From Microvenator marinus (GTDB taxonomy: Bacteria > Myxococcota_A > Bradymonadia > Bradymonadales > Bradymonadaceae), in the NCBI RefSeq assembly GCF_007993755.1, contig NZ_CP042467.1, positions 5,604,001-5,668,000 of the forward strand: a stretch of DNA of 64,000 nucleotides, given 5' to 3'. Both the position numbers and the translations under genes were made by a program. A model generated the notes under the pieces. That model made no database searches. It worked only from the letters and a program-made list of their open reading frames with translations, and had not been told where the DNA came from. Shown one piece after another: positions 47,661 through 61,996 of the stretch (positions within the stretch are counted from its first letter, which is position 1; each line of letters begins with the position of its first letter).

Positions 47661-48935
47661 ATGTTGAAGAAATGGTTAATTTGTCTTGGGCTTGGCGGTG
47701 TACTGTTGGGTGGTCTAAGTGGATGCGCTGCGTCAAATAGCGCGATGGCCACCAGAGAGATACCTTCCTCAGCTCGTGTCTTTGTGGAGGTGCGCCAGGA
47801 CACGATCATGGCCAGCGGAGTCAAGGACGACGTTGCAGGCAAGCTTAAGGAGAATTTGCTTGCCACTCGCCAGGGCGTCCCAGTCAACTCACGTGAAACG
47901 GCGGACCTGGTTATTGAGGTGGACGTTTTGGACGTCAATTTCACCCACGCGATCAAATGGGAGTGGAACGTGTACGACAGCTCGGGCGCAGTGGTCCTTG
48001 CAAAGGCAGATACCTCAGCTTTTGGAGCGAGTGGCGAAGCTATCGCAACTCAAGTCGTCTCTGCGCTGGGTGAAATCGATACGATGGCCTATTCAGGCGG
48101 CGCCACGCCAGCGGTTCGGGTGGCGGCAAAGCCCGCCCAGAGCTCTACGGGCGAGTTTCCGCAATCGAACACCGACGGGTCCAATTCATGGGCGGTGGTG
48201 ATTGGGATCGAGAATTATCGTGAGTCACTGCCCGCTGCATCAGGCGCCGAGCGCGACGCTCGCGCGTTTGCGGACCTCGTCCAGAAAACGTTGAATGTGC
48301 CGGAAGCCAATATCAAGGTCTTGACCGGTGAGCGGGCCAGCAAGGCGGATATCAGCGCGGCTCTCTTTGAGTGGCTGCCTCGAAACGCTGTTCAGAAGGG
48401 TGGACGCGTCTACGTGTTCTTCTCGGGGCACGGAGCGCCAGATGTGGAGAATGGGACGTCGTTCCTCGTGCCCTATGATGGAAACCCTACCTATATCCGT
48501 TCGGGCGGAATCCAAGTGGCGGAGGTTCAGGGCGCGCTCTCGAACCTCAAAGGCCAAGATGCGTATCTCTTCTTGGACTCATGTTTCTCGGGTACCGGAG
48601 ACCGTAGCGTGCTTCCCGAAGGGACGCGTCCGTTGGTGCCGGTCAAAGAGTTGGAAGGCGGCTCCGTCTTTACCTTCACGGCATCAGGCGCACGTGAGAC
48701 CACGGGCGCTCATCCTGAGAGCGGACACGGGCTCTTTACCCACTATCTTTTGGACGGAATGAAGGGGCTTGCGGACTCCAATAAGGACGGGAACGTGAAC
48801 GTCTCGGAGCTAAAAGGCTTTGTTGTGGACAATGTGAAGGTCGAGGCGCGTCGCCAGAACCGTGAGCAGACGCCTTCCCTCCTTGTGCCCGCCTCAAAGT
48901 CCGGGGCGGCCGTGGTTCAAGGGCTTCAACCTTAG
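47661..48935 (+). CDS. caspase-like (C14) lipoprotein with EF-hand loop
   Basis: 424-aa protein. The signal peptide has lipobox LSGC (Cys22). Residues about 35-150 form an N-terminal domain of unknown type. From about 185 there is a caspase/metacaspase fold: WAVVIGIENY, catalytic His257 in FFSGHGAP and Cys308 in LFLDSCFSG. A canonical 12-residue EF-hand loop, DSNKDGNVNVSE, lies near residue 375, suggesting calcium control as in metacaspases. It is probably an envelope-anchored cysteine peptidase; substrate unknown. Its end overlaps the convergent thrE-like gene by four bases. Confidence 0.88.
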   Translation: MLKKWLICLGLGGVLLGGLSGCAASNSAMATREIPSSARVFVEVRQDTIMASGVKDDVAGKLKENLLATRQGVPVNSRETADLVIEVDVLDVNFTHAIKWEWNVYDSSGAVVLAKADTSAFGASGEAIATQVVSALGEIDTMAYSGGATPAVRVAAKPAQSSTGEFPQSNTDGSNSWAVVIGIENYRESLPAASGAERDARAFADLVQKTLNVPEANIKVLTGERASKADISAALFEWLPRNAVQKGGRVYVFFSGHGAPDVENGTSFLVPYDGNPTYIRSGGIQVAEVQGALSNLKGQDAYLFLDSCFSGTGDRSVLPEGTRPLVPVKELEGGSVFTFTASGARETTGAHPESGHGLFTHYLLDGMKGLADSNKDGNVNVSELKGFVVDNVKVEARRQNREQTPSLLVPASKSGAAVVQGLQP

Positions 48936-51042: not shown

Positions 51043-51459
51043 CTACTTCTTGGTGTGCAGGTAGGCGATGATGGCGCGGGCTTCTTCCTGCGTGACGGGT
51101 GGTGTTGCCATTGGGGTCTTGTACTCTTCAAAGAGTTTCTTTGCCTCTGGGTCGGTTTTCACGAAGTTCAGAGGGTCAGTGATCATGGACTGCAACCACT
51201 CAGGCGAGCGTTTTGCTGTGACGCCTTTGAGAGGAGGTCCGACAACCTTATTGTCCCATTGGTGGCATGCGTTGCAGGTTTTTGCTGTGAAGAGTTTTTC
51301 TCCCTCGGCAATGACGGCTGGGTCGGTTGAAATAGTGAACGTCGCAGACGAAGCGCCCGCAGCCTTGTCGGCTTTTGCGGGTGCCTTTGCTTCGGACTTG
51401 CACCCCACGAAGGCGAGGAGGGCGGCGATTACGAATGATGCGATTAACGTGTTTCTCAT
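51043..51459 (-). CDS. lipoprotein cytochrome c
   Basis: 138-aa monoheme cytochrome c anchored by a lipid (signal peptide with FVGC). The heme motif is CNACH at about residue 67. The axial Met is probably in YKTPMATPP. Class I fold, with helix ARAIIAYLHTKK at the end. It is likely the electron donor to the heme-copper enzyme whose genes follow on the upstream side. An FNR/DNR-like box lies 65 bases before its start (51524-51535). Confidence 0.9.
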   Translation of the reverse strand: MRNTLIASFVIAALLAFVGCKSEAKAPAKADKAAGASSATFTISTDPAVIAEGEKLFTAKTCNACHQWDNKVVGPPLKGVTAKRSPEWLQSMITDPLNFVKTDPEAKKLFEEYKTPMATPPVTQEEARAIIAYLHTKK

Positions 51460-51543: not shown

Positions 51544-53595
51544 TCATTTTCTTGGCGAGTTTGGAGAGCTGAGTGTCCAAACACCTTCTTCGAATGTGAA
51601 AACGTGGCGCTCCATCTGACGGAAGACGAGCTGTGCTTCCTTGACGTGAGTCCATCTGTCAGCATGGCCGACTTCGATTTTGACCTGATGCTCGCCCTCA
51701 CCGACGGGAATCTTTATCAACGCGAAGCTAGGGCCGTCTGAGGCGAGCCCATGTGGCTCGTAGGTGGCTTGGTGGACCACACTTGGCCCGACGCTCACAC
51801 GAACGTTGACATCGGGTCTGGAGCGCTCACAGATTGTGTCGGACTTCATGTGCCGCATCATCTTGGCTTTTTCCTCTTCGGTTGCCGGCCTGCAGAGTTC
51901 TTCGACCTTGGGTCGGTACTTCAACGAAAGCACGAGTTCCGGACTCGGGTCTGCCTCGAATAGGCTCGCCATGTTTGAAGGGGCCCAGACGAGCGCAGAG
52001 AGTGTCGCCGCGACTAAAACGCCCTTAACCCAGTGCTTGGGTTGCACTTTGAAGCCCGATGGCTTTGCGAGGGAGTCTGTTCGATAGGCGTCAATATCGG
52101 CCAGCATGGAGACGAGGTCTCCGCGCGGATGAAGTATGAACCTGACTCGGCTCGTGTCCACCTTTTCAAGCCTCATCTGAGGTGAGCGTTTGGCGTCGAG
52201 CCTGTCTTGTGTGAACTCGACTCCTTCCCTGAAAGGTGGGTCGCTGCAGCCGCACCCGACCACGAGAACTCCCTTCGCGCCGCGTCTGAGTGCTCTTTCA
52301 ACGGTGATGGGGTTGACCCAACCCGAGCAAGGTACTTGAACGCATCTGAAGCCGGGGAGTTCGGTTGAGACTCCGTTTTCGTCGATTGAAAAGTCGCCGG
52401 CAGCCGAGTTTGCGCAAAGGAACGCGATGAGAGGCTCCTCGCCATCGTTTTGGACCTGGTCAACCCATTGGTCCACGACCTTTCTCTTGTCTTGGACGGG
52501 GAGGCTTGGGATGCCGATTCCGGCCGAGTTGCAGGAGCCGGAGCAAATGGTGCAGCCTACGCAGAGGTTTGGGTCAACCTTTGCTTCGAGCTCCCATGGG
52601 CGTCCGTCCGTGCGAGGAACCATGGTGATAGCGCCGTAGGGGCAGTCGTTGGCGCAATTTGTACAGCCGTTGCAGCGGTTGAGGTCGACTTGAGCTTTTT
52701 CGGGCTCCTTACGGCTGAGCGTCCACGGAATCGTGAAGAGCAGCAAACCGAGCACAAAGGCTGCGGTCCAGATCACGCCGGTGCCGAGGCGGTCAGCGAC
52801 GGCCAGCGGGAAGAGGTACCACCAATCCATAGTCTCGAAAGCAGGCTTGATGCTCATGTCGGCTTGTTCGGAACTCAATGCAGGAAAGGCGATGGAGACC
52901 GCTAAGAGTGAGGCACCAAGCCACGCACCCATGGGTTTGGACGTGAGGAATTTTGCGCGTGCGACACGGCTGATATGCATCCAAATCGCCACCCCGATGA
53001 CCAGTGGGATGAGCATGTGGAAGAAGAATACCGTCACAAAGAGTCCACTTGAGACTGCTTCGTTGACGACGAAGGTGCGGGAGAGTGGGTCGGTGAAGAT
53101 TGGGATAGGCTCAACAAGCCGAGCGCTGATCGTGGCGAGGCTTTGAGCGCGAGAATCCCAGACGAGCCAGTAGCCGAGCCATCCTACAAACCAGAGGGTC
53201 CCGAGGCTAAACACGCCGGTGACCCACGCCACCCAGCGCGGGCCTGAGAAGCGAGACGCAAACAAGAGTTTTGCCGCATGGAAGAGCACCAGGAGCATGG
53301 TTGCGTCAGATGAATAGCGGTGCACCGAGCGTGTGAGCTGCCCGAGCGCGCTCATGTTTTCGAGCGATGCCCAGGCTTCGTGCACGCTTGGGCTGTACCA
53401 AAATAGCAGCAGTACGCCGGAGATCGCGGCGATGATAAAGGAGACGTTAGCAAGCGCGCCGGTCTGGGCGAACGGGTTCATCGAAGGCGGCAAATGCGCC
53501 TCCATGAGCCTGTCGAGCGCGACGAACGGCGCTTGCAAGAGATCGAAGAGGCGCGGCCAGCGCGACTGGTTCGAGAGTTTTTGTGGATTTGACAT
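51544..53595 (-). CDS. cytochrome b / ferredoxin / MvhD-like fusion protein
   Basis: 683-aa membrane electron-transfer protein. The N-terminal part is a cytochrome b/b6-like four-helix bundle with two heme b ligand pairs, H92/H106 and H193/H207, each 14 residues apart. Then two [4Fe-4S] motifs follow: C308, C311, C314, C318 in RCNGCTNCANDCPYG, and C345, C348, C351, C355. The next domain looks like MvhD (hydrogenase iron-sulfur subunit): AFLCANSAAG, RCVQVPCSG and VVGCGCS. One membrane helix and a C-terminal beta-domain end the protein. ATG 53595 (GGAGG upstream) lies two bases after the SCO stop. It may oxidise quinol and feed the heme-copper enzyme. Confidence 0.88.
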   Translation of the reverse strand: MSNPQKLSNQSRWPRLFDLLQAPFVALDRLMEAHLPPSMNPFAQTGALANVSFIIAAISGVLLLFWYSPSVHEAWASLENMSALGQLTRSVHRYSSDATMLLVLFHAAKLLFASRFSGPRWVAWVTGVFSLGTLWFVGWLGYWLVWDSRAQSLATISARLVEPIPIFTDPLSRTFVVNEAVSSGLFVTVFFFHMLIPLVIGVAIWMHISRVARAKFLTSKPMGAWLGASLLAVSIAFPALSSEQADMSIKPAFETMDWWYLFPLAVADRLGTGVIWTAAFVLGLLLFTIPWTLSRKEPEKAQVDLNRCNGCTNCANDCPYGAITMVPRTDGRPWELEAKVDPNLCVGCTICSGSCNSAGIGIPSLPVQDKRKVVDQWVDQVQNDGEEPLIAFLCANSAAGDFSIDENGVSTELPGFRCVQVPCSGWVNPITVERALRRGAKGVLVVGCGCSDPPFREGVEFTQDRLDAKRSPQMRLEKVDTSRVRFILHPRGDLVSMLADIDAYRTDSLAKPSGFKVQPKHWVKGVLVAATLSALVWAPSNMASLFEADPSPELVLSLKYRPKVEELCRPATEEEKAKMMRHMKSDTICERSRPDVNVRVSVGPSVVHQATYEPHGLASDGPSFALIKIPVGEGEHQVKIEVGHADRWTHVKEAQLVFRQMERHVFTFEEGVWTLSSPNSPRK

Positions 53596-53597
53596 GC

Positions 53598-54524
53598 TCA
53601 CACCTCCGCGAGCAACACCTTGAGGGCAGTCTTGAGCCAGTTCTGGTGCCGTTCACCAAGGCTCAAGCGGTAAGCAATCGTTTGGTTACGATCGACGAGA
53701 ATAAACATGTTGGCGTGTTCGATGACGCCGGTTTCGGGGTTGGTCCAACGTGCAAAGTTGAGGTTGTCCAAGAGTGCGTTGACGGTGTCTTTGTCCCCGT
53801 TGACGAGGTTCACCCTTGGGGCGAAGAGTTGGTGGGCATCCGCATTCTTCTTCAACTTCTCGGGCGTGTCGTTTTCTGGGTCGAGGGTGATCGCCACGAC
53901 CGTGACTTTTTCCAGGTCCTCGTCGCTCAGGGTGTTGAGCGTTTTTCGCAATGTGGTCAGGATCATGGGGCACGTATCAGTACATGTGGCGTAGATTGCC
54001 GTGATGATGACCACACGGTCCTTTAGGTCTTCGGAACGGATTCGCTCCCCCTCTTGGTTGAAGAGGTCGAATTCGGGAAGAGGCATGGCGGTCCGAAGTC
54101 TTTCGGCCGGAAACGGGCGTTCCTGATCTGGGACTTCGGTAGGGCCTAAGAGGTAGAGGCCAACGCTAAGGCCTACAACGGTGACCAGCGAATATGCGGT
54201 GATCTTGAGGATGCTCGAGCGAGCGTCTCTCCAAGCGAGGTTGAGCGGGCGCCACCAGATACCGGCGACGATTCCAACCAGCATGAGCGGGTTTAGAATC
54301 ATGACGGCGACATAGGCCCAGTTCATGGTTCCTGCGTTCGGATCGTAGCTAAAACACCAGGTTTTGAAATCCTCCACAAAGGCACCGAAAGGGGTCTCGG
54401 TGACGGGAATGACCAAGATGGCGCTCATGAAGAGGGTGGCAAAGACGAGGATGCCGATCATGAACGCGGCAAACACGTGTCCTGAAAAGAGGCGCTCGAA
54501 CGCATGAACTGGGCGAATAGTCAT
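53598..54524 (-). CDS. SCO1/SenC-family copper chaperone, membrane fused
   Basis: 308-aa protein with an N-terminal portion of three membrane helices, longer than usual for SCO. The C-terminal thioredoxin-like domain carries copper ligands C and C of ATCTDTCPMI and the His of IEHANMFILVD. It delivers copper to the CuA or CuB site of the oxidase. It lies three bases after the subunit I stop and is followed by the cytochrome b fusion. The order COX2-COX1-SCO is that described for norS-norY-senC in ammonia oxidisers. Confidence 0.92.
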   Translation of the reverse strand: MTIRPVHAFERLFSGHVFAAFMIGILVFATLFMSAILVIPVTETPFGAFVEDFKTWCFSYDPNAGTMNWAYVAVMILNPLMLVGIVAGIWWRPLNLAWRDARSSILKITAYSLVTVVGLSVGLYLLGPTEVPDQERPFPAERLRTAMPLPEFDLFNQEGERIRSEDLKDRVVIITAIYATCTDTCPMILTTLRKTLNTLSDEDLEKVTVVAITLDPENDTPEKLKKNADAHQLFAPRVNLVNGDKDTVNALLDNLNFARWTNPETGVIEHANMFILVDRNQTIAYRLSLGERHQNWLKTALKVLLAEV

Positions 54525-54527
54525 GGT

Positions 54528-56219
54528 TTACCTCACCCACCAGAGGTCGGCCAGAGCCTTCCAGTTTGCGAAGTAGTAGACCACGAACGAGATGAGCAGA
54601 ATCATCACGAGCACCATGGTTCCAGGTGCACGGCCCGCGCTCGCCTCGGCTTCGGCAGCTTCGGCTTCGGCCTGGGATGCCACGATTGGGGGAGTTCCCC
54701 AATCGAAGATCGCGCGTCCTTTGTTGGATTCACCGAAGAATACCGCCCAGACCGTGAGCAGGATGTAGATGAGCAGGCCTGTGAAGGCCAGCACGCCTCC
54801 AACGCCCATGATGCCGAGCATCAGGTGGGCTGTAGAGCCGTAGATGCCAGCGGCGTCGATATCCCAAGTTCGTCTTGCGACACCGTTGGTGCCCGCGAAC
54901 GACATACCCAAACTCACCATCACGATACCGATGGCAAAGATATAGGGCTGGAGCCGGGCCAGCCACTTCATCGGGTAGTCGCGCTGGAAGAATAGCGGGA
55001 CCACGTAGTAGGTCACGGCCATGAACGAGAGCGTGGTTCCGCCTACTACCGTGGCGTGGAAGTGCCCGGGAATGCGCATGGTGTTGTGGGCGAGGATGTT
55101 GATCTGTTGTGTTCCCAACGTTACGCCGGTGATGCCGCCGATGAACCCAAAGATCACCAGGGAGAGGAAGAAGCCGGAGAAAGCTGGGTTCTTCCAGGGT
55201 GCGTTCCAGAGCCAGCCGAAGAGGCCGCGTCCGTAGCCTCGGATGCGCATGCCGATTTCCATACCCGCAGGGACTGTAAATCCGTGGATGAGCGACGCGA
55301 GCACAGCGAGGTACATAGCGTAGGACGTGTTCCAGATCTTCCAGCCTGCACCGACACCTGGGTCCACCAAAAGGTGGTGAGCCGAGGCGAGGTTGATGAA
55401 GAGGATGTAGAGGAGGAATGCGGCTCTGGAGACGAATTCGTTGATGGGTTTTGCGCCGGTGGTCAGATAGGAAATCAGGTACCAAATGGAGACCATGGCG
55501 GCCACGTTGACCTGCTGTGATTGGTGTCCAAGTCCCCACCAAATCAAGCGATACCACATTGGGTCGGGTTCGGGTGTGAGGCCGAGTGAGAACGTGAACG
55601 TAGGCACGAGAGCGATGGCACCGTGCAGGAGCGCGAGAACGGCGATGATGGCGGCCGTCATGGCTCCGAAGGTAACCAAAGGCATGGAGCCTTCGTAGTT
55701 TTTGTCTCGTTTGGCCACGTAGAGCGTGCCGAAGAAGTTTCCAACGCCAACCAGCGTTCCGACCGCAACGAGGATGATTCCAAGGTAGAATAGAGGGTGT
55801 GCAAGCAGTGGTAGATACGACGTCATCATGACGTCTGCTTTGCCCATGAAGATGGTGTAGTCCGTCATCACGGACCCAACGACCATTAAACCGAAAGACA
55901 CCCACGCGAGTTTTCGAGAGAAAAGCTTTGTATTGAGAAGGGTTGTGCAGGCAAAGTAGAGGACGGCGACTTCGAAGAAGAGAATCCAAAAGATGAGCAT
56001 ATTGATCCCGTGCAGGGTCAAGATGCGGTAGAACCACGCGGTGTCCAAGAGGTGCACGGCGGGCCATCGGGTGAGGACCAGGAGTAGGGCAGCGATTGCA
56101 CCTACGAGAAGATACACAACGGCCATGACGGCGTTGAGCTTGATGAAGGCCTGCGCGTCGAGACACACGGGGAGTCCCGTCGTGTCGCATCGTCGCATTC
56201 CTGGCTTGAGGTCAGACAT
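54528..56219 (-). CDS. B-family heme-copper oxidase subunit I lacking the HPxxY tyrosine
   Basis: 563-aa, 12- to 13-helix catalytic subunit, close in sequence to Thermus ba3 subunit I (matching phrases GRGLFGW, PWKNPAF, NTxxxPGHFH). Low-spin heme ligands are H70 and H388; the high-spin heme ligand is H386; CuB ligands are H232 and H281-H282. The residue four after H232, tyrosine in oxygen reductases (HPIVY), is glutamine (HQSQQ, Q236). All metal ligands are kept, so it is probably active but with altered chemistry, perhaps NO reduction (sNOR/bNOR-like). AAAGGAG precedes ATG 56219. It lies ten bases after subunit II. Confidence 0.9.
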   Translation of the reverse strand: MSDLKPGMRRCDTTGLPVCLDAQAFIKLNAVMAVVYLLVGAIAALLLVLTRWPAVHLLDTAWFYRILTLHGINMLIFWILFFEVAVLYFACTTLLNTKLFSRKLAWVSFGLMVVGSVMTDYTIFMGKADVMMTSYLPLLAHPLFYLGIILVAVGTLVGVGNFFGTLYVAKRDKNYEGSMPLVTFGAMTAAIIAVLALLHGAIALVPTFTFSLGLTPEPDPMWYRLIWWGLGHQSQQVNVAAMVSIWYLISYLTTGAKPINEFVSRAAFLLYILFINLASAHHLLVDPGVGAGWKIWNTSYAMYLAVLASLIHGFTVPAGMEIGMRIRGYGRGLFGWLWNAPWKNPAFSGFFLSLVIFGFIGGITGVTLGTQQINILAHNTMRIPGHFHATVVGGTTLSFMAVTYYVVPLFFQRDYPMKWLARLQPYIFAIGIVMVSLGMSFAGTNGVARRTWDIDAAGIYGSTAHLMLGIMGVGGVLAFTGLLIYILLTVWAVFFGESNKGRAIFDWGTPPIVASQAEAEAAEAEASAGRAPGTMVLVMILLISFVVYYFANWKALADLWWVR

Positions 56220-56229
56220 AGGAACTCCT

Positions 56230-56754
56230 TTATTCGACGAAGATTTTGCCGATCATGGCGTGGTGGCCGATGCCGCAAAATTCGTTGCAAACGATTGTGA
56301 ATTCGCCAGTGTGGGTCGGCGTGATGGTCAAAACGTGGTCGTAGCCCGGCATGACTTGGAAGTTCATGTTGATGGGCTGCAACGAGAAGCCGTGCTGCAA
56401 ATCTGCGGACGAGATGTGCAGGCGGTACGTCTCACCCTTGCGAAGCTTGAGTACGGGGTACCAGCTCCACATTCTGGCGAGCAGGTATGCGTCGCCACCG
56501 GGAGGGGGCTCGGCAACAGGAATACCATTGTGTTCCGAGACTTTGTTGGTCTGGGCGAACTTCTCTGCGCGTTCGGTGAACTCAGCAGGTGTGACGCTAT
56601 AGGATTCGCCTGTGCTGTTTTGCTTACCCTTGAAGTGCCAGAAGGGCATCATGGCGAACATGATGAGGCACCAGACAAGGGCAAGCCCGATCCAGAGGCG
56701 CTCGTGCCCGTGCGGCATCTGAAACCAATCGGGGGCTGGACTATGAATGGACAT
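56230..56754 (-). CDS. heme-copper oxidase subunit II with complete CuA site
   Basis: 174-aa protein with one N-terminal membrane helix (about residues 20-38) and a cupredoxin domain. The CuA ligands are all present: H121 in LQHGFS, C156, E158 and C160 in CNEFC, H164 and M167 in GIGHHAMIGK. It receives electrons from a cytochrome c and passes them to subunit I. It is short, as in ba3 and NorS types. AAAGGAG precedes ATG 56754. Confidence 0.94.
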   Translation of the reverse strand: MSIHSPAPDWFQMPHGHERLWIGLALVWCLIMFAMMPFWHFKGKQNSTGESYSVTPAEFTERAEKFAQTNKVSEHNGIPVAEPPPGGDAYLLARMWSWYPVLKLRKGETYRLHISSADLQHGFSLQPINMNFQVMPGYDHVLTITPTHTGEFTIVCNEFCGIGHHAMIGKIFVE

Positions 56755-56764
56755 GAGAACTCCT

Positions 56765-56920
56765 TTAGGGAAGGGTCGCTTTGGTGATGGTGAGAAGCTC
56801 GAGCCAACCCCACGCGGTGTAGCTGATGAACGGAATCAGAAGCCCGAGCGCGAGCAAGAGCCATGGGTTGTCTAAGAGCTTCTGAAGGGGATGTGTTTTG
56901 TTTTCGGCATCTTGGCTCAT
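56765..56920 (-). CDS. 51-aa single-helix membrane subunit
   Basis: Small protein from ATG 56920, which overlaps the stop of the preceding gene as ATGA and has GGAGG upstream. It has a short polar N-terminus (MSQDAENKTHPLQKLLDN) and one membrane helix (WLLLALGLLIPFISYTAWGW). Its size and place just before subunit II recall the single-helix subunit IIa of ba3 oxidases. A longer frame extending upstream through the subunit-I-like gene is rejected. Confidence 0.8.
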   Translation of the reverse strand: MSQDAENKTHPLQKLLDNPWLLLALGLLIPFISYTAWGWLELLTITKATLP

Positions 56921-58398
56921 GGTGTGGCCTCCTTGGTGTAAGTCATTCCAACGATTGATTTGAGCTTGAGCGCGATAAGCGGCGTGCTTTCGCGAAGAAA
57001 GATGAAGATAAAGGCGAGCCCGCCGGCCACGGCGACCAGCCCGCCGAGCCCCATGATGCTGAGACCTAGCCAGTCCCAGACGCCACGAACGGCTTGTTCC
57101 GCACCGTAGACCTTGCGGCCCATGCCGTGTGCCCCTGCCATTGCAAATCCAATCGCAAACACGAGCTGGCCGACCCCGAAGAGTACCGGTTGGAGGGCGA
57201 AGAGCCTGGAGTAGCGGTCTTTTGAGGTACGATGTGTTTCGTAATTGGTGTGTGTTGCGGTACGAGACGTATCGTACTTTATTACGTCTGTATGGAAGAG
57301 CGGTGTGGCCTTGAGACCAAAGCGCTGTGGCGCAATGAGCACCAATGCTACAGTCATGAACGAGACGGTGACGGCTCCAATCGCGGCATGGTAGTGCGCG
57401 GGGATCATCGTGTTCGAGCCCCGAATCATGGCGCCCAGAATGAAGCCCGTGACGGTGAGCGATGCGGACGTTGCAAAGCCCACCAGTCGAGGGTCGCGCC
57501 ATGACCAAACGTGGCTTGTCTTCTTGAGTTCCCAGAGGATGAAGCCGAGCATGGTGAGCACTGCCGGGAAGATCCCCCAGCGCATCAATTGGGTGGCGCC
57601 ATTGTAGTAGAGAGCCGAGCTTGTCCCAGCCAGGGTGAATGCGGGCATCGCGAGGTGTGGGGTGACCAAGAGCCCGAAGAGGAACGCTGCTTTTCCACGC
57701 GAGAGAACAGGGCGCTTGAGAATGGTTCCAATCAGGATGAGCCAAACCGAGAGCATCGCGGTCTCGCTGGCTAACTGCAAGACGTGTCCACCGCCCCAGG
57801 CGATGAGTTCATAGTAGGCGGCATTCTCGAGCTCGCGCGGCGTACTCAACCAGGCCCCGTAGAAGGTCAAGGCGGCCGCAAATGTGGCGATAGCACAAGC
57901 CCTGAGCCCGATCCGGGCGTCTGGGAAAACTGGGAAGTAGCCTGCCGTTTCGTCGTCAATCAGACGCGGCGAGAGCATCGCCGCGAGCACGCCGATGCCG
58001 AAAAGAACGAGTCCTGTGATGAAGAGGGGGTGGTCAACAACTGGGACGTAGTTCGCGAGCACTGGCTCGGCGTGTTTGATTCCAGCCGAGAGCACCATCA
58101 GGACGATACCTATAATGGCAGGCGTCGTGCCTCGCCACGCCCCGTACCAGGCACCTGCTTTGGTTGCCACCAGTTGCATGAGCGCCGCGATGAAGGCGTA
58201 AAACCACACGATGAGCGCCAGATCCACGTGCACGACGAGTGCTCGGCGAAAGAAGTCGGGGTCATTGATGATGTTCGCAAAGATCGGGACTCTCGCGACG
58301 ACCAATGCCATCGAGAAGCAGCCCGCGAGCATAAGAGAGCCAATGGAGATGCCCATCCATCGAGCGGTGTTCATCTGGTCGGTGTTCGGATCGGACAT
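56917..58398 (-). CDS. second heme-copper oxidase subunit I-like protein, degenerate
   Basis: 493-aa polytopic membrane protein distantly related to subunit I, NorB or CcoN. Recognisable helix positions are H57 (VVHVDLALIVWF), H205 (WGGGHVLQLAS) and H335/H337 (PAHYHAAIG). Where a catalytic subunit has two adjacent histidines, this one reads GTSSALYYNG, so CuB cannot be formed normally. It may carry a heme for electron transfer or have lost catalysis. First gene of the operon; AAAGGAG precedes ATG 58398, and an FNR/DNR-like box lies 62 bases upstream. Confidence 0.82.
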   Translation of the reverse strand: MSDPNTDQMNTARWMGISIGSLMLAGCFSMALVVARVPIFANIINDPDFFRRALVVHVDLALIVWFYAFIAALMQLVATKAGAWYGAWRGTTPAIIGIVLMVLSAGIKHAEPVLANYVPVVDHPLFITGLVLFGIGVLAAMLSPRLIDDETAGYFPVFPDARIGLRACAIATFAAALTFYGAWLSTPRELENAAYYELIAWGGGHVLQLASETAMLSVWLILIGTILKRPVLSRGKAAFLFGLLVTPHLAMPAFTLAGTSSALYYNGATQLMRWGIFPAVLTMLGFILWELKKTSHVWSWRDPRLVGFATSASLTVTGFILGAMIRGSNTMIPAHYHAAIGAVTVSFMTVALVLIAPQRFGLKATPLFHTDVIKYDTSRTATHTNYETHRTSKDRYSRLFALQPVLFGVGQLVFAIGFAMAGAHGMGRKVYGAEQAVRGVWDWLGLSIMGLGGLVAVAGGLAFIFIFLRESTPLIALKLKSIVGMTYTKEATP

Positions 58399-58495: not shown

Positions 58496-58942
58496 TTATT
58501 CCACGACCTTCTTGAGCTCTTCGAGCGTGTCGGGGTGGGCGCCGCTGGCCGACCAAATCTCGCAATGGTTCGCGTCGAGGACGATAGTCCAGGGAAATGC
58601 TCTGGGCGCTACTCGCTCTAAGATTCGAGAGTCTGTGTCCCAGATGACCTTAGGGTCTAACGCGTATTTCTTCAGAAAACTTTGAGCGCGATGGGTGTCT
58701 TTCTCCGAGTTTATGGCGACCACGGCGACGCGGTCCGAAGCGAGCTCTTGCGCATGCTTAAGAGAGACGACGCAAGGCGCACACCACGTGGCCCAGAACT
58801 CGAGGATGACCTTTTTGCCCTGGAGCTCTTCGTAGCCTTGGTGAACCGAGAGCTCATCGGACCAATCTCGATCTGCGGGACATTCGGCCGCGGCATTCGA
58901 GCTGATAATGAGGGAAATTAGTGTGACGAGCAGATAGCGCAT
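58496..58942 (-). CDS. TlpA-like exported thioredoxin
   Basis: 148-aa secreted thiol-disulfide protein. The signal peptide (MRYLLVTLISLIISSNAAA) is not a lipobox type. The active site is ILEFWATWCAPCVVSLKHA, with the cis-Pro in APRAFPWTIV. Proteins of this group reduce cysteines of apocytochromes or of CuA sites, which fits the neighbouring oxidase. ATG 58942 has AAGGAGG upstream. It is its own transcription unit with an FNR/DNR-like box 48 bases before the start. Confidence 0.9.
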   Translation of the reverse strand: MRYLLVTLISLIISSNAAAECPADRDWSDELSVHQGYEELQGKKVILEFWATWCAPCVVSLKHAQELASDRVAVVAINSEKDTHRAQSFLKKYALDPKVIWDTDSRILERVAPRAFPWTIVLDANHCEIWSASGAHPDTLEELKKVVE

Positions 58943-58989
58943 GGAGCCTCCTTCAGAGTCCAAACTAAGGACGTCTGAGCCGGACGAGC

Positions 58990-59001
58990 TGATCTAGATC
59001 A
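58990..59001. promoter_or_regulatory. FNR/DNR-like box upstream of the TlpA-like gene
   Basis: TGATCTAGATCA is a perfect 12-base palindrome. It overlaps the stop codon of the nnrS-type gene and stands 48 bases before the TlpA-like start, so it serves the latter. Confidence 0.65.
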
Positions 59002-60207
59002 CCCTGGGCGCCCATCGGGCCGAGGAGTCAGCAACATATGCGCGTGTTGAGTCAGGTATAGGAGGAAGGCAGCCGACCAAAGTCCGGCCGAGACTACGAT
59101 GGATGTCATCACGGCCGAGCCGCCGACAATCGGTCCTCCGACACGCGTTAGAACCGCACCGACCATGAGCACGAAGGCTAGGGTGGTGAGTTTGTCCGTG
59201 GTGAGGTCTCTGCCCGTGTGGCCGCGGGTGACGCGGGCCATCATACCGAGGCAAAGGATGCCGATGACTCCTGTGGTTAAGCCGTGAATGGCCACGCTTG
59301 GAGCCAGCACCCCCCACGAACTTACGGCGAGCAAGGTAAAACCAAGGATAAGCCAGAGATTTCCGAAATGTAGGATCCAGAGCAGAGGCACCTTGAGGGT
59401 CTTGAGGCTTCCCCACTTCCAAGAGCGGACGACAAGCGCCAGTGCTAGTGCGAGCGCGACCCACGGAACCAGGACTTGGATCCCCGAAGTGGAGATAGCC
59501 GCGAAGAGTACCGCGAGCCCCACACAGAGTTTATCGACCTTGGGATTCGACTGGATGCTCATGTCGTCGAGCGCGTTACGTGTAAATAGTGGGACAATTC
59601 TTCCTGTGATTAGAATCACAATGACCAAAATCATATGCAAAGCTAAATACAAAGATTTCATGCCCATTCCGCTCGTTATGCCGTAAACGTCTAAATGCGT
59701 GAGCAGATTTGACGCCCACATAACCATTAGTATTATTGGGAATACGTAGTTGCGTTTGTTCTTCGTCTTGAAGATTGGCCTCGCAATAGTACCTGCAAAG
59801 ATTGGCAAAAACGCGAGGTCAATCGCGCTCACAATAGGATAAAAAGCCTCGGGCAGAAAACCGCAGAGAAGGATTCCAATTCTGCCGGCCAGCCAGACCG
59901 AAAACACCCCCAAAAGGAGCCAGCCCTCTGCCGTAGATTCGCGTGTCCAATTGCTCACAGCCGTCAGCAGAAAGCCTGCGATCACGGCTACCGTAAAACC
60001 GTGGAGCATTTCGTGGGCGTGCCAGACAATGGGGCCGAACGGACCTGTGGCGCCGCCCTTGAGATACACCCATGCCCAGAGAGGCATATAGAGCACGGCA
60101 AAGAGCGCGGCCCCCAGGAAAAACGGGCGAAAGCCTTTGCCGAGTAACGCAAAAGGAACCTCCGCGGCGGGAGGATCGATGAGTGAAATAGATTTTGGTG
60201 TCGTCAT
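58999..60207 (-). CDS. NnrS-family membrane protein
   Basis: 402-aa protein with about 12 membrane helices. Family motifs: FALLGKGFRPFFLGAALFA, IVWHAHEMLHGFTVAVIAGF with histidines that probably bind heme/copper, and LLTAVSNWTRE; later THLDVYGI, HMILVIVILITGRIVPLFTRN and MMARVTRGHTGR. NnrS proteins are linked to nitric oxide metabolism and protect against nitrosative stress. ATG 60207 overlaps the preceding stop (ATGA). Its presence is the main contextual support for an NO-related role of this cluster. Confidence 0.93.
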   Translation of the reverse strand: MTTPKSISLIDPPAAEVPFALLGKGFRPFFLGAALFAVLYMPLWAWVYLKGGATGPFGPIVWHAHEMLHGFTVAVIAGFLLTAVSNWTRESTAEGWLLLGVFSVWLAGRIGILLCGFLPEAFYPIVSAIDLAFLPIFAGTIARPIFKTKNKRNYVFPIILMVMWASNLLTHLDVYGITSGMGMKSLYLALHMILVIVILITGRIVPLFTRNALDDMSIQSNPKVDKLCVGLAVLFAAISTSGIQVLVPWVALALALALVVRSWKWGSLKTLKVPLLWILHFGNLWLILGFTLLAVSSWGVLAPSVAIHGLTTGVIGILCLGMMARVTRGHTGRDLTTDKLTTLAFVLMVGAVLTRVGGPIVGGSAVMTSIVVSAGLWSAAFLLYLTQHAHMLLTPRPDGRPG

Positions 60208-61127
60208 AGGAAGTTCCTCTGCACACTGATGCCGCCGGAAACGCCGGTTCGCGGGAGGTTCTCTCCTAGAAACATATCCGTGCCAGCCGAGAAATTGATG
60301 TCCCAGAAGGGAAAGGCGAGCGATTGGCGCCAGTGCGCACCGAAGGTTAGACGGCGCATTCCCGAGCCGTCAATGATCTTGCCTGCGGTAGTGATTTCGG
60401 AATGCATGGATCCACGGACAAAGAGCCCGGCAGACCAGAAGATGCTGCCTTCGTAGGCCCAGCCGAGGACTCCTCGAAGCTCCGAACCGGGCTTGACCGC
60501 AAAGGACTCGCGACCCAATTCTACGTCATGTGAAAACTTGTAGAGCCAGTCTGCGTTGAGCCTCAGGGCATGAGATGGCACCACAAACTTGATGACGCGC
60601 ACTCCGGCTCCGAGTGAGTGCGAGCCGGTGCTCGTGATATCGGCGCCGAACGGGTCTTCGCTCGTTTTAGTCGCGTTGCCGGTTGCGATTGACCCCATCA
60701 GGACGAATTCCAGGAACGGAGTTGGGTCGTGCGAAAGGCCCAACATCGGGTCTTCTAGGGCTAGCCATCCAGTGCTAAACGCAACATCTCCAAGGGCCCA
60801 TTGGGTGCTGCCGAGTGCTTGAGCTGACCTGTGCTGCAGGTGATACGGGACGAGCAAGCCCACTCGAACGGACTCTACCGGCCGTATTCCGCCCGAGACT
60901 GTGAAGATGATGTCTTCGCTCTGGGTCTCTTCGAAAGTTTCTCTATCTCCTTGTGCGTTGAACGAGGCGACACCGTGGTCAAAGGTCATGCCGGCCTGGA
61001 GCATCGCCTTGTGGCAACGGCCTACCACACCTGCTTCACCGGCAGACGTGGCGCTGCAACACGCCTGAGCCCATAGGTCTGTGCTCCAGAGGGCAACCAG
61101 AATGGCTGCCAACAAAGTGATTTTCAT
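60204..61127 (-). CDS. outer-membrane-like beta protein, unknown function
   Basis: 307-aa protein with signal peptide MKITLLAAILVALWSTDLWA. The mature part is made of alternating hydrophobic strands separated by short turns, as in outer-membrane barrels (VRVGLLVPYHLQH, LEFVLMGSIATG), and ends in Phe-Leu. An early CC pair (QACCSATS) and CHKA may bind metal; this resembles barrels annotated as transporters or as part of heavy-metal clusters. AAGGAGGTC precedes ATG 61127. A longer frame upstream is rejected as shadow of ctaB. Confidence 0.75.
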   Translation of the reverse strand: MKITLLAAILVALWSTDLWAQACCSATSAGEAGVVGRCHKAMLQAGMTFDHGVASFNAQGDRETFEETQSEDIIFTVSGGIRPVESVRVGLLVPYHLQHRSAQALGSTQWALGDVAFSTGWLALEDPMLGLSHDPTPFLEFVLMGSIATGNATKTSEDPFGADITSTGSHSLGAGVRVIKFVVPSHALRLNADWLYKFSHDVELGRESFAVKPGSELRGVLGWAYEGSIFWSAGLFVRGSMHSEITTAGKIIDGSGMRRLTFGAHWRQSLAFPFWDINFSAGTDMFLGENLPRTGVSGGISVQRNFL

Positions 61128-61138
61128 GATGACCTCCT

Positions 61139-61996
61139 TCAGCCGTGCAAGAGCGCGGCAATGGTCATAAGGGGAAGATACGCAAGTCCCGAGAAGAAGA
61201 GTCGTTTTGCCCATAGCTCGGGGATTTTGACTTTTGTGAAGGCGAACCCTAGCGGAAGAGCAGCCCCTGCGAGGCCAAGGATGAAGCTTGCGCCTTGTTC
61301 TACGACAAGGCCCGCGGAGAGGGCGAAGAGGACAACGGAGAGGATCCGCGCCCAGCGTACGGCGTTTTGAAGCTGGTGGTCTCGGCAACCAATGGCAAAC
61401 CCGGCGTCCAAGTATTGTTTCGCCCGGCGGATGCTGATGGCCAAGAAGTGCGGGAGCTGCCAGACGAAAAGGGCTCCGAAGAGTAGCCACGCGGTGGCTT
61501 CCCAAGCAACGTGCGCTGCGGCCCAACCGATAAGTGGTGGAATGGCTCCAGACACCGCACCCACAGGTATGGCAACCCACGAAACTCTCTTAAGCGGGGT
61601 GTAGATTCCAACGTAGATGACGCATGCTAGCACGCCGAGCAGGGCCGCCCCGAGGCCCCCGTAAACAGCGAGCACCAGGCTTCCCGCGATCAGCAAAAAG
61701 GTGGCAATTCCAGAGGCGAAGTTTCGGCTAAATATGCCGTCGGCCACCGGGCGACTCGAGGTGCGAGGCATTCTCGCGTCAACGTCGGCTTCGAGCTCTT
61801 GGTTCGCCGCACCGCAGCCTGCCACGAGGAGCGCCACGCCCAGTCCGACTGAAACCACAAGGTCAGGACGGCCCGCAACGGCAGTGCCAACTCCGGCCAT
61901 CATGGCGTTCGTGACCACGATTCCGGGTTTGGTCAATTTGAGGAGCGATCCCACCTGGGCCGTGATCTGCGCGTCGTTACTGGTCAAAGAAAGCAT
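61139..61996 (-). CDS. ctaB: heme O synthase (protoheme IX farnesyltransferase)
   Basis: 285-aa UbiA-family prenyltransferase with about eight membrane helices. The first Asp motif is NQELEADVDARMPRTSSRP, characteristic of CtaB/CyoE, and YTPLKR follows the usual helix. It adds a farnesyl group to heme b to give heme O for heme-copper oxidases. No ctaA was seen here. GGAGG precedes ATG 61996. It leads the transcript ctaB-barrel-nnrS; an FNR/DNR-like box lies 56 bases upstream. Confidence 0.93.
   Translation of the reverse strand: MLSLTSNDAQITAQVGSLLKLTKPGIVVTNAMMAGVGTAVAGRPDLVVSVGLGVALLVAGCGAANQELEADVDARMPRTSSRPVADGIFSRNFASGIATFLLIAGSLVLAVYGGLGAALLGVLACVIYVGIYTPLKRVSWVAIPVGAVSGAIPPLIGWAAAHVAWEATAWLLFGALFVWQLPHFLAISIRRAKQYLDAGFAIGCRDHQLQNAVRWARILSVVLFALSAGLVVEQGASFILGLAGAALPLGFAFTKVKIPELWAKRLFFSGLAYLPLMTIAALLHG

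Follow-up and report, generated by a model that had tools for sequence, protein, structure and literature searches.

Within the window, a 64,000-nucleotide stretch of the Microvenator marinus genome, eleven co-directional genes separated by short gaps run from 61996 to 51043 on the minus strand. In order of transcription they encode CtaB, a probable outer-membrane protein, NnrS, a ResA-like thioredoxin, a second protein with the heme-copper oxidase fold (P2), a 51-aa protein with one transmembrane segment, a CuA subunit II, a heme-copper oxidase subunit I (P0001), an SCO protein, a cytochrome b-ferredoxin-FlpD fusion, and a c-type cytochrome. The presumed catalytic subunit, P0001 (563 aa, 54528-56219), is preceded by the CuA subunit II (174 aa, 56230-56754), which carries a CNEFCGIGHHAM motif from residue 156 together with H121 (CxxxCxxxHxxM), and is followed by a membrane-anchored SCO1/SenC copper chaperone recognized by Pfam (308 aa, 53598-54524). 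The nitrosative-stress protein NnrS (402 aa, 58999-60207) was likewise identified with Pfam, at 361.6 bits. The first-pass annotation of this DNA had already pointed to these three neighbours, all of which lie on the minus strand as P0001 does, but it made no mention of P2 (493 aa, 56917-58398) or of the small conserved subunit (51 aa, 56765-56920). The latter, with the pattern DNPWLLL..P..SYT.WG..EL..LP, is comparable to subunit IIa/CbaC, and most loci from the group to which P0001 belongs encode the same peptide between P2 and the CuA subunit.

The 685-aa fusion of cytochrome b, two [4Fe-4S] ferredoxin units and FlpD (51544-53601) is a possible electron input, and the monoheme c-type cytochrome (138 aa, 51043-51459) is a possible donor to CuA. 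The thioredoxin/ResA-like protein (155 aa, 58496-58963) is probably involved in CuA or cytochrome maturation. Farther upstream are the probable outer-membrane protein (307 aa, 60204-61127), which has no Pfam match and whose membrane class was judged by eye, and the CyoE/CtaB heme o synthase (285 aa, 61139-61996), whose score of 178.8 bits is below the curated cut-off of 210.3. P2, the small peptide, the CuA subunit, subunit I, SCO and the large cytochrome b protein form a core that is found again in different phyla. The cytochrome b-ferredoxin-FlpD protein, also found in proteobacterial and gemmatimonad eNOR clusters, is a recurrent partner in several phyla and may be an electron-input module. 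In two relatives' loci (L076 and L078), a divergently oriented upstream gene encodes a regulator of the Rrf2 type, to which the NO sensor NsrR also belongs. On a Thermus plasmid, genes for a nitrite reductase, an Rrf2 regulator and a DUF542 protein are found in the vicinity of the eNOR copy. Elsewhere in the window, an ORF on the plus strand (47661-48935) encodes a 424-aa lipoprotein-like product with the look of a caspase-type (C14) peptidase, judged by eye from its HG and DSC motifs.

The interval originally proposed for subunit I was correct, with the strand left out: translation gives an intact 563-aa ORF on the minus strand of 54528-56219, and stop codons abound on the plus strand. The protein scores 217 bits against Pfam COX1, and its closest relatives in the PDB are ba3-type oxidases (7deg, E=4e-45; Thermus ba3, ~1e-41). 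No eNOR model in NCBIfam matched P0001, and the oxidase models did so well below cut-off. An AlphaFold2 model built from 38 sequences (pLDDT 82.9, pTM 0.86) adopts the ba3 fold, with ba3 as its best match (TM 0.79). In alignment with Thermus ba3, all six claimed histidines fall on the metal ligands, H70 and H388 for the low-spin heme, H386 for the high-spin heme, and H232, H281 and H282 for CuB. The other claim at the active site holds as well: Gln236, within GHQSQQVN, aligns with ba3 Tyr237, the cross-linking tyrosine of oxygen reductases. Compared with the Thermus thermophilus enzyme (1xme), P0001 shares the fold, all metal ligands and the K-path positions S309, T315 and Y248 (Y247 in P0001), but differs by the changes Y237 to Q236, Y244 to V243 and T312 to H312, and cannot form the His-Tyr cross-link at the usual site.

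The homologues came from four sources: 237 genomes of the window's phylum, plasmids, named genome contigs (80 loci), and one order of Pseudomonadota. The cross-link column is Gln in all 139 aligned homologues, whereas Tyr-type B-family relatives have HPxVY, HAIVY and similar sequences at the corresponding motif; Gln236 is therefore neither a chance substitution nor a sequencing error. The motif HxxQQ[VI]N is present in every one of the 83 plasmid and contig members, and W228, H232, Q235, Q236, N238, W246, Y247, S309, H312, E321, R449 and R450 are invariant throughout the 139 sequences. Active-site ligands are equally invariant with one exception, a Thermus thermophilus plasmid eNOR (L040, 7992-9674) in which the low-spin heme ligand H388 is changed to Lys (GHFK instead of GHFH). 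At the positions of the ba3 K-path, mapped on the ba3 alignment, Y247, S309 and H312 do not vary and T315 is T or S, a pattern that fits one proton channel. It had been suggested that a tyrosine supplied from another helix would return the protein to the oxygen reductases. At the single known alternative, the C-family cross-link position, which we take from cbb3 structures to be six residues before the TM7 His-His pair, all 139 sequences have Ile or Leu and none has Tyr; the rule is consistent with the cbb3 oxidase of the Microvenator marinus genome itself. Y300 and Y303 on TM8 are conserved tyrosines.

The recently recognized eNOR family reportedly goes back to Hemp and Gennis (2008), and its biochemical characterization, on Rhodothermus marinus, is said to be that of Murali et al. 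(PNAS, 2024). A published table of active-site residues (PMC8756737, Table A4) gives Y for oxygen reductases, E for c/qNOR, N for sNOR, Q for eNOR, D for gNOR and N for CuANOR. The same source identifies eNOR by the Gln and places the family in Archaea, Chloroflexi and Proteobacteria, with a Thermus protein in its sequence set, and eNOR is counted among the biochemically characterized NORs (PMC11388526). P0001 combines Gln at the cross-link position with the six histidines and a CuA subunit II encoded immediately upstream, and it shares with the family the ba3-related fold and the conserved proton-path residues. On the basis of these features, it is very probably subunit I of an eNOR-type, CuA-containing, ba3-related NO reductase that converts NO to N2O, an assignment that follows the published residue. 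P0001 is thus a further member of a known family in which the Gln is an already documented signature. Relative to the features listed for the family, the Microvenator cluster has in addition a CuB-less paralogue, P2, directly upstream.

Phylogenetic analysis is in line with this grouping. In a tree of 49 sequences, inferred by a quick method with an aa3/cbb3 outgroup, a long P2 branch and no Asn-type sequences, the Gln-type, P2-type and Tyr-type proteins each fall on one side of a branch, with SH-aLRT values of 87 for the Gln group, 98 for the Tyr group and 99 for Gln plus P2 against Tyr. The Gln group hence stands apart from the B-family oxygen reductases, and a placement inside them, raised beforehand as the outcome that would overturn the NO-reductase reading, was not recovered. 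The homologues gathered include Thermus, Accumulibacter and Balneolaceae members and no named Rhodothermus sequence. The group of P0001 itself, with members from Myxococcota, Verrucomicrobiota, Leptospiraceae, Calditrichota, Balneolaceae and others, is mostly 63-77% identical to it; most proteobacterial proteins are at 52-56%, and those of Thermus and Thermomicrobium at 43-47%.

Other readings of P0001 have to be weighed against these data. The first-pass annotation favoured a CuA-linked heme-copper NO reductase over an oxygen reductase, which agrees with our results, but its proposal of an sNOR/bNOR-like enzyme or a new type does not, since the published eNOR residue is Gln and that of sNOR/bNOR is Asn. 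Membership in the sNOR or bNOR (CuANOR) groups was suggested by the norS-norY-senC gene order, and the likeness is real: the order of CuA subunit, subunit I and SCO is shared, both groups are related to ba3, and the Bacillus CuANOR cluster also includes a small membrane peptide of 46 aa (PMC3475470). However, these enzymes carry Asn at the active-site position (PMC8756737; PMC3475470 for Bacillus), where Gln is invariant in the 139 sequences, and we regard this reading as extremely unlikely. When Asn-type sNOR sequences were sought in Pseudomonadota and in one of its orders, only Tyr- and Gln-type proteins were recovered. Gln236 likewise excludes P0001 from gNOR, for which Asp would be expected and in contrast to which all three CuB histidines are present, and from cNOR/qNOR, which have Glu at this position, lack a CuA subunit and are distant in sequence, even though the predicted reaction, 2 NO to N2O, is the same.

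It could also be argued that P0001 is a high-affinity B-family oxygen reductase that works without the cross-linked tyrosine, as its fold is ba3-like, a CuA subunit accompanies it and its homologues are annotated as oxidases. This we consider very unlikely, given that HQSQQ replaces the HPxxY motif, that the 139 sequences have no tyrosine at either the A/B- or the C-family cross-link position, that the genome already encodes aa3 and cbb3 oxidases, and that the gene context is NO-related. Some other nitrogen-oxide chemistry, such as detoxification of NO to a different product or action on another small ligand, might be read from the invariant Q235, N238 and H312, which are not seen in ba3-type relatives, and from unusual partners such as P2 and the cytochrome b-ferredoxin-FlpD protein. 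It is the least likely of the three, because the family is cited as a characterized NO reductase (PMC11388526) and the simpler NO-reductase reading fits everything seen. The idea that P0001 is an NO reductase is well supported, and the protein most likely reduces NO to N2O rather than O2 to water.

The genome is 5.85 Mb in one contig. At a distance of ~85 kb from the eNOR cluster it has a nirS-like gene of the cytochrome cd1 type (L126, genome 5572387-5573535, minus strand), whose product bears a heme c motif in its N-terminal part; nirK (CuNIR) is present above cut-off, and no nosZ was found above cut-off in the genome. Only four COX1-family proteins are encoded, namely an aa3 oxidase, a fused cbb3 oxidase, P0001 and P2. 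The genome therefore lacks cNOR and qNOR, and the eNOR is its sole heme-copper NO reductase candidate. A few kb past the end of the window (L194, 4466-5637 and 10696-12513) are a Crp/Fnr-like regulator gene beside a hemerythrin-like gene and a second CuNIR-like multi-cupredoxin gene.

Building on what was observed directly, that is, the sequence features and their conservation, the fold, the gene context and the absence of another NO reductase, a mechanism can be proposed. A periplasmic cytochrome c, and perhaps the cytochrome b-ferredoxin-FlpD protein as well, would supply electrons to CuA on subunit II. CuA would hand them on to the low-spin heme with its two His ligands (H70/H388), from which they would arrive at the high-spin heme (H386) and CuB (H232, H281, H282), where two NO would be converted to N2O. 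Four-electron splitting of O2 would be disfavoured because there is no His-Tyr cross-link to give an electron and a proton. Gln236, with Q235 and N238, plausibly aids substrate binding or proton delivery. Protons would probably be drawn from the cytoplasm through a modified ba3 K-path (Y247-S309-H312-T315), and with such uptake turnover could be electrogenic.

The less explained part of the cluster is the CuB-less neighbour P2, which deserves follow-up. A single-sequence search of the PDB with P2 gave no match, whereas a profile search found ba3 subunit I (E ~1e-10), and the P2 model (pLDDT 87, pTM 0.89) is a complete oxidase fold with Z 25-27.6 over ~400 residues. Across 39 members, H57, H205, H335, H337 and the R428/K429 pair do not vary, and variable residues replace the TM7 His-His pair of CuB. 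Judging from these residues, both hemes should bind, and H205 could ligate the second heme; a CuB site is not expected because the His-His pair is not conserved, which also rules out that P2 is another NOR with ordinary catalysis. In a search for a named family, no NCBIfam model matched P2 and Pfam COX1 did so only below cut-off; there was no match in the plasmid collection. No description of P2 or of CuB-less heme-copper oxidase homologues was found in the literature searched, the main eNOR paper being outside its reach.

P2 is found together with eNOR in the window's phylum and in other phyla, and seldom without it. Of 237 genomes of the window's phylum, 25 carry P2 and one more has a fragment of it, 29 carry eNOR and 24 carry both; P2 adjoins eNOR in 24 of the 29 eNOR genomes. 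In four of the five eNOR genomes that lack P2, the eNOR gene lies at the edge of a contig, and the two P2 genomes without eNOR (G103 and the fragment-bearing G014) also break at contig edges. Outside the phylum, P2 is present in 11 of 18 eNOR genomes and is sometimes unlinked. The class of the Balneolaceae genome has nine genomes with both, five with eNOR only and two with P2 only, so eNOR can do without P2, and P2 is not strictly tied to eNOR. P2-type proteins without an adjoining eNOR were seen at three loci (L189, 6875-8275; L190, 7162-8556; L191, 7745-9262). Neither the L189 genome nor the L190 genome yielded an eNOR match, and an Rrf2-like gene lies a few kb from the P2-type gene in L189.

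Distances among P2 proteins correlate with those among subunits I over 32 pairs (Mantel r 0.81; none of 5000 permutations as high), which fits joint inheritance, as would be predicted by shared organismal descent as well. In the tree P2 is sister to eNOR subunit I (99), and long-branch attraction would be expected to draw it in the opposite direction, to the aa3/cbb3 outgroup. P2 is most likely an ancient duplicate retained as an accessory heme subunit; an independent NO-handling or NO-binding cytochrome is the alternative. Beyond this, we propose only tentatively that in many bacteria the eNOR forms complexes with P2 in which a heme-copper oxidase core has given up catalysis to serve as a diheme electron relay or in NO binding or sensing, and has been passed on together with the catalytic subunit in different phyla. 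If P2 is a true subunit, it would be an unusual reuse of the heme-copper oxidase fold minus the copper site.

As eNOR-type genes are annotated as cytochrome c oxidases, the capacity to reduce NO, and hence to produce N2O, is readily overlooked when genomes of Myxococcota, Verrucomicrobiota, Gemmatimonadota, Pseudomonadota and others are examined. Microvenator marinus would otherwise seem to be an NO-producing organism without a reductase to remove the NO.
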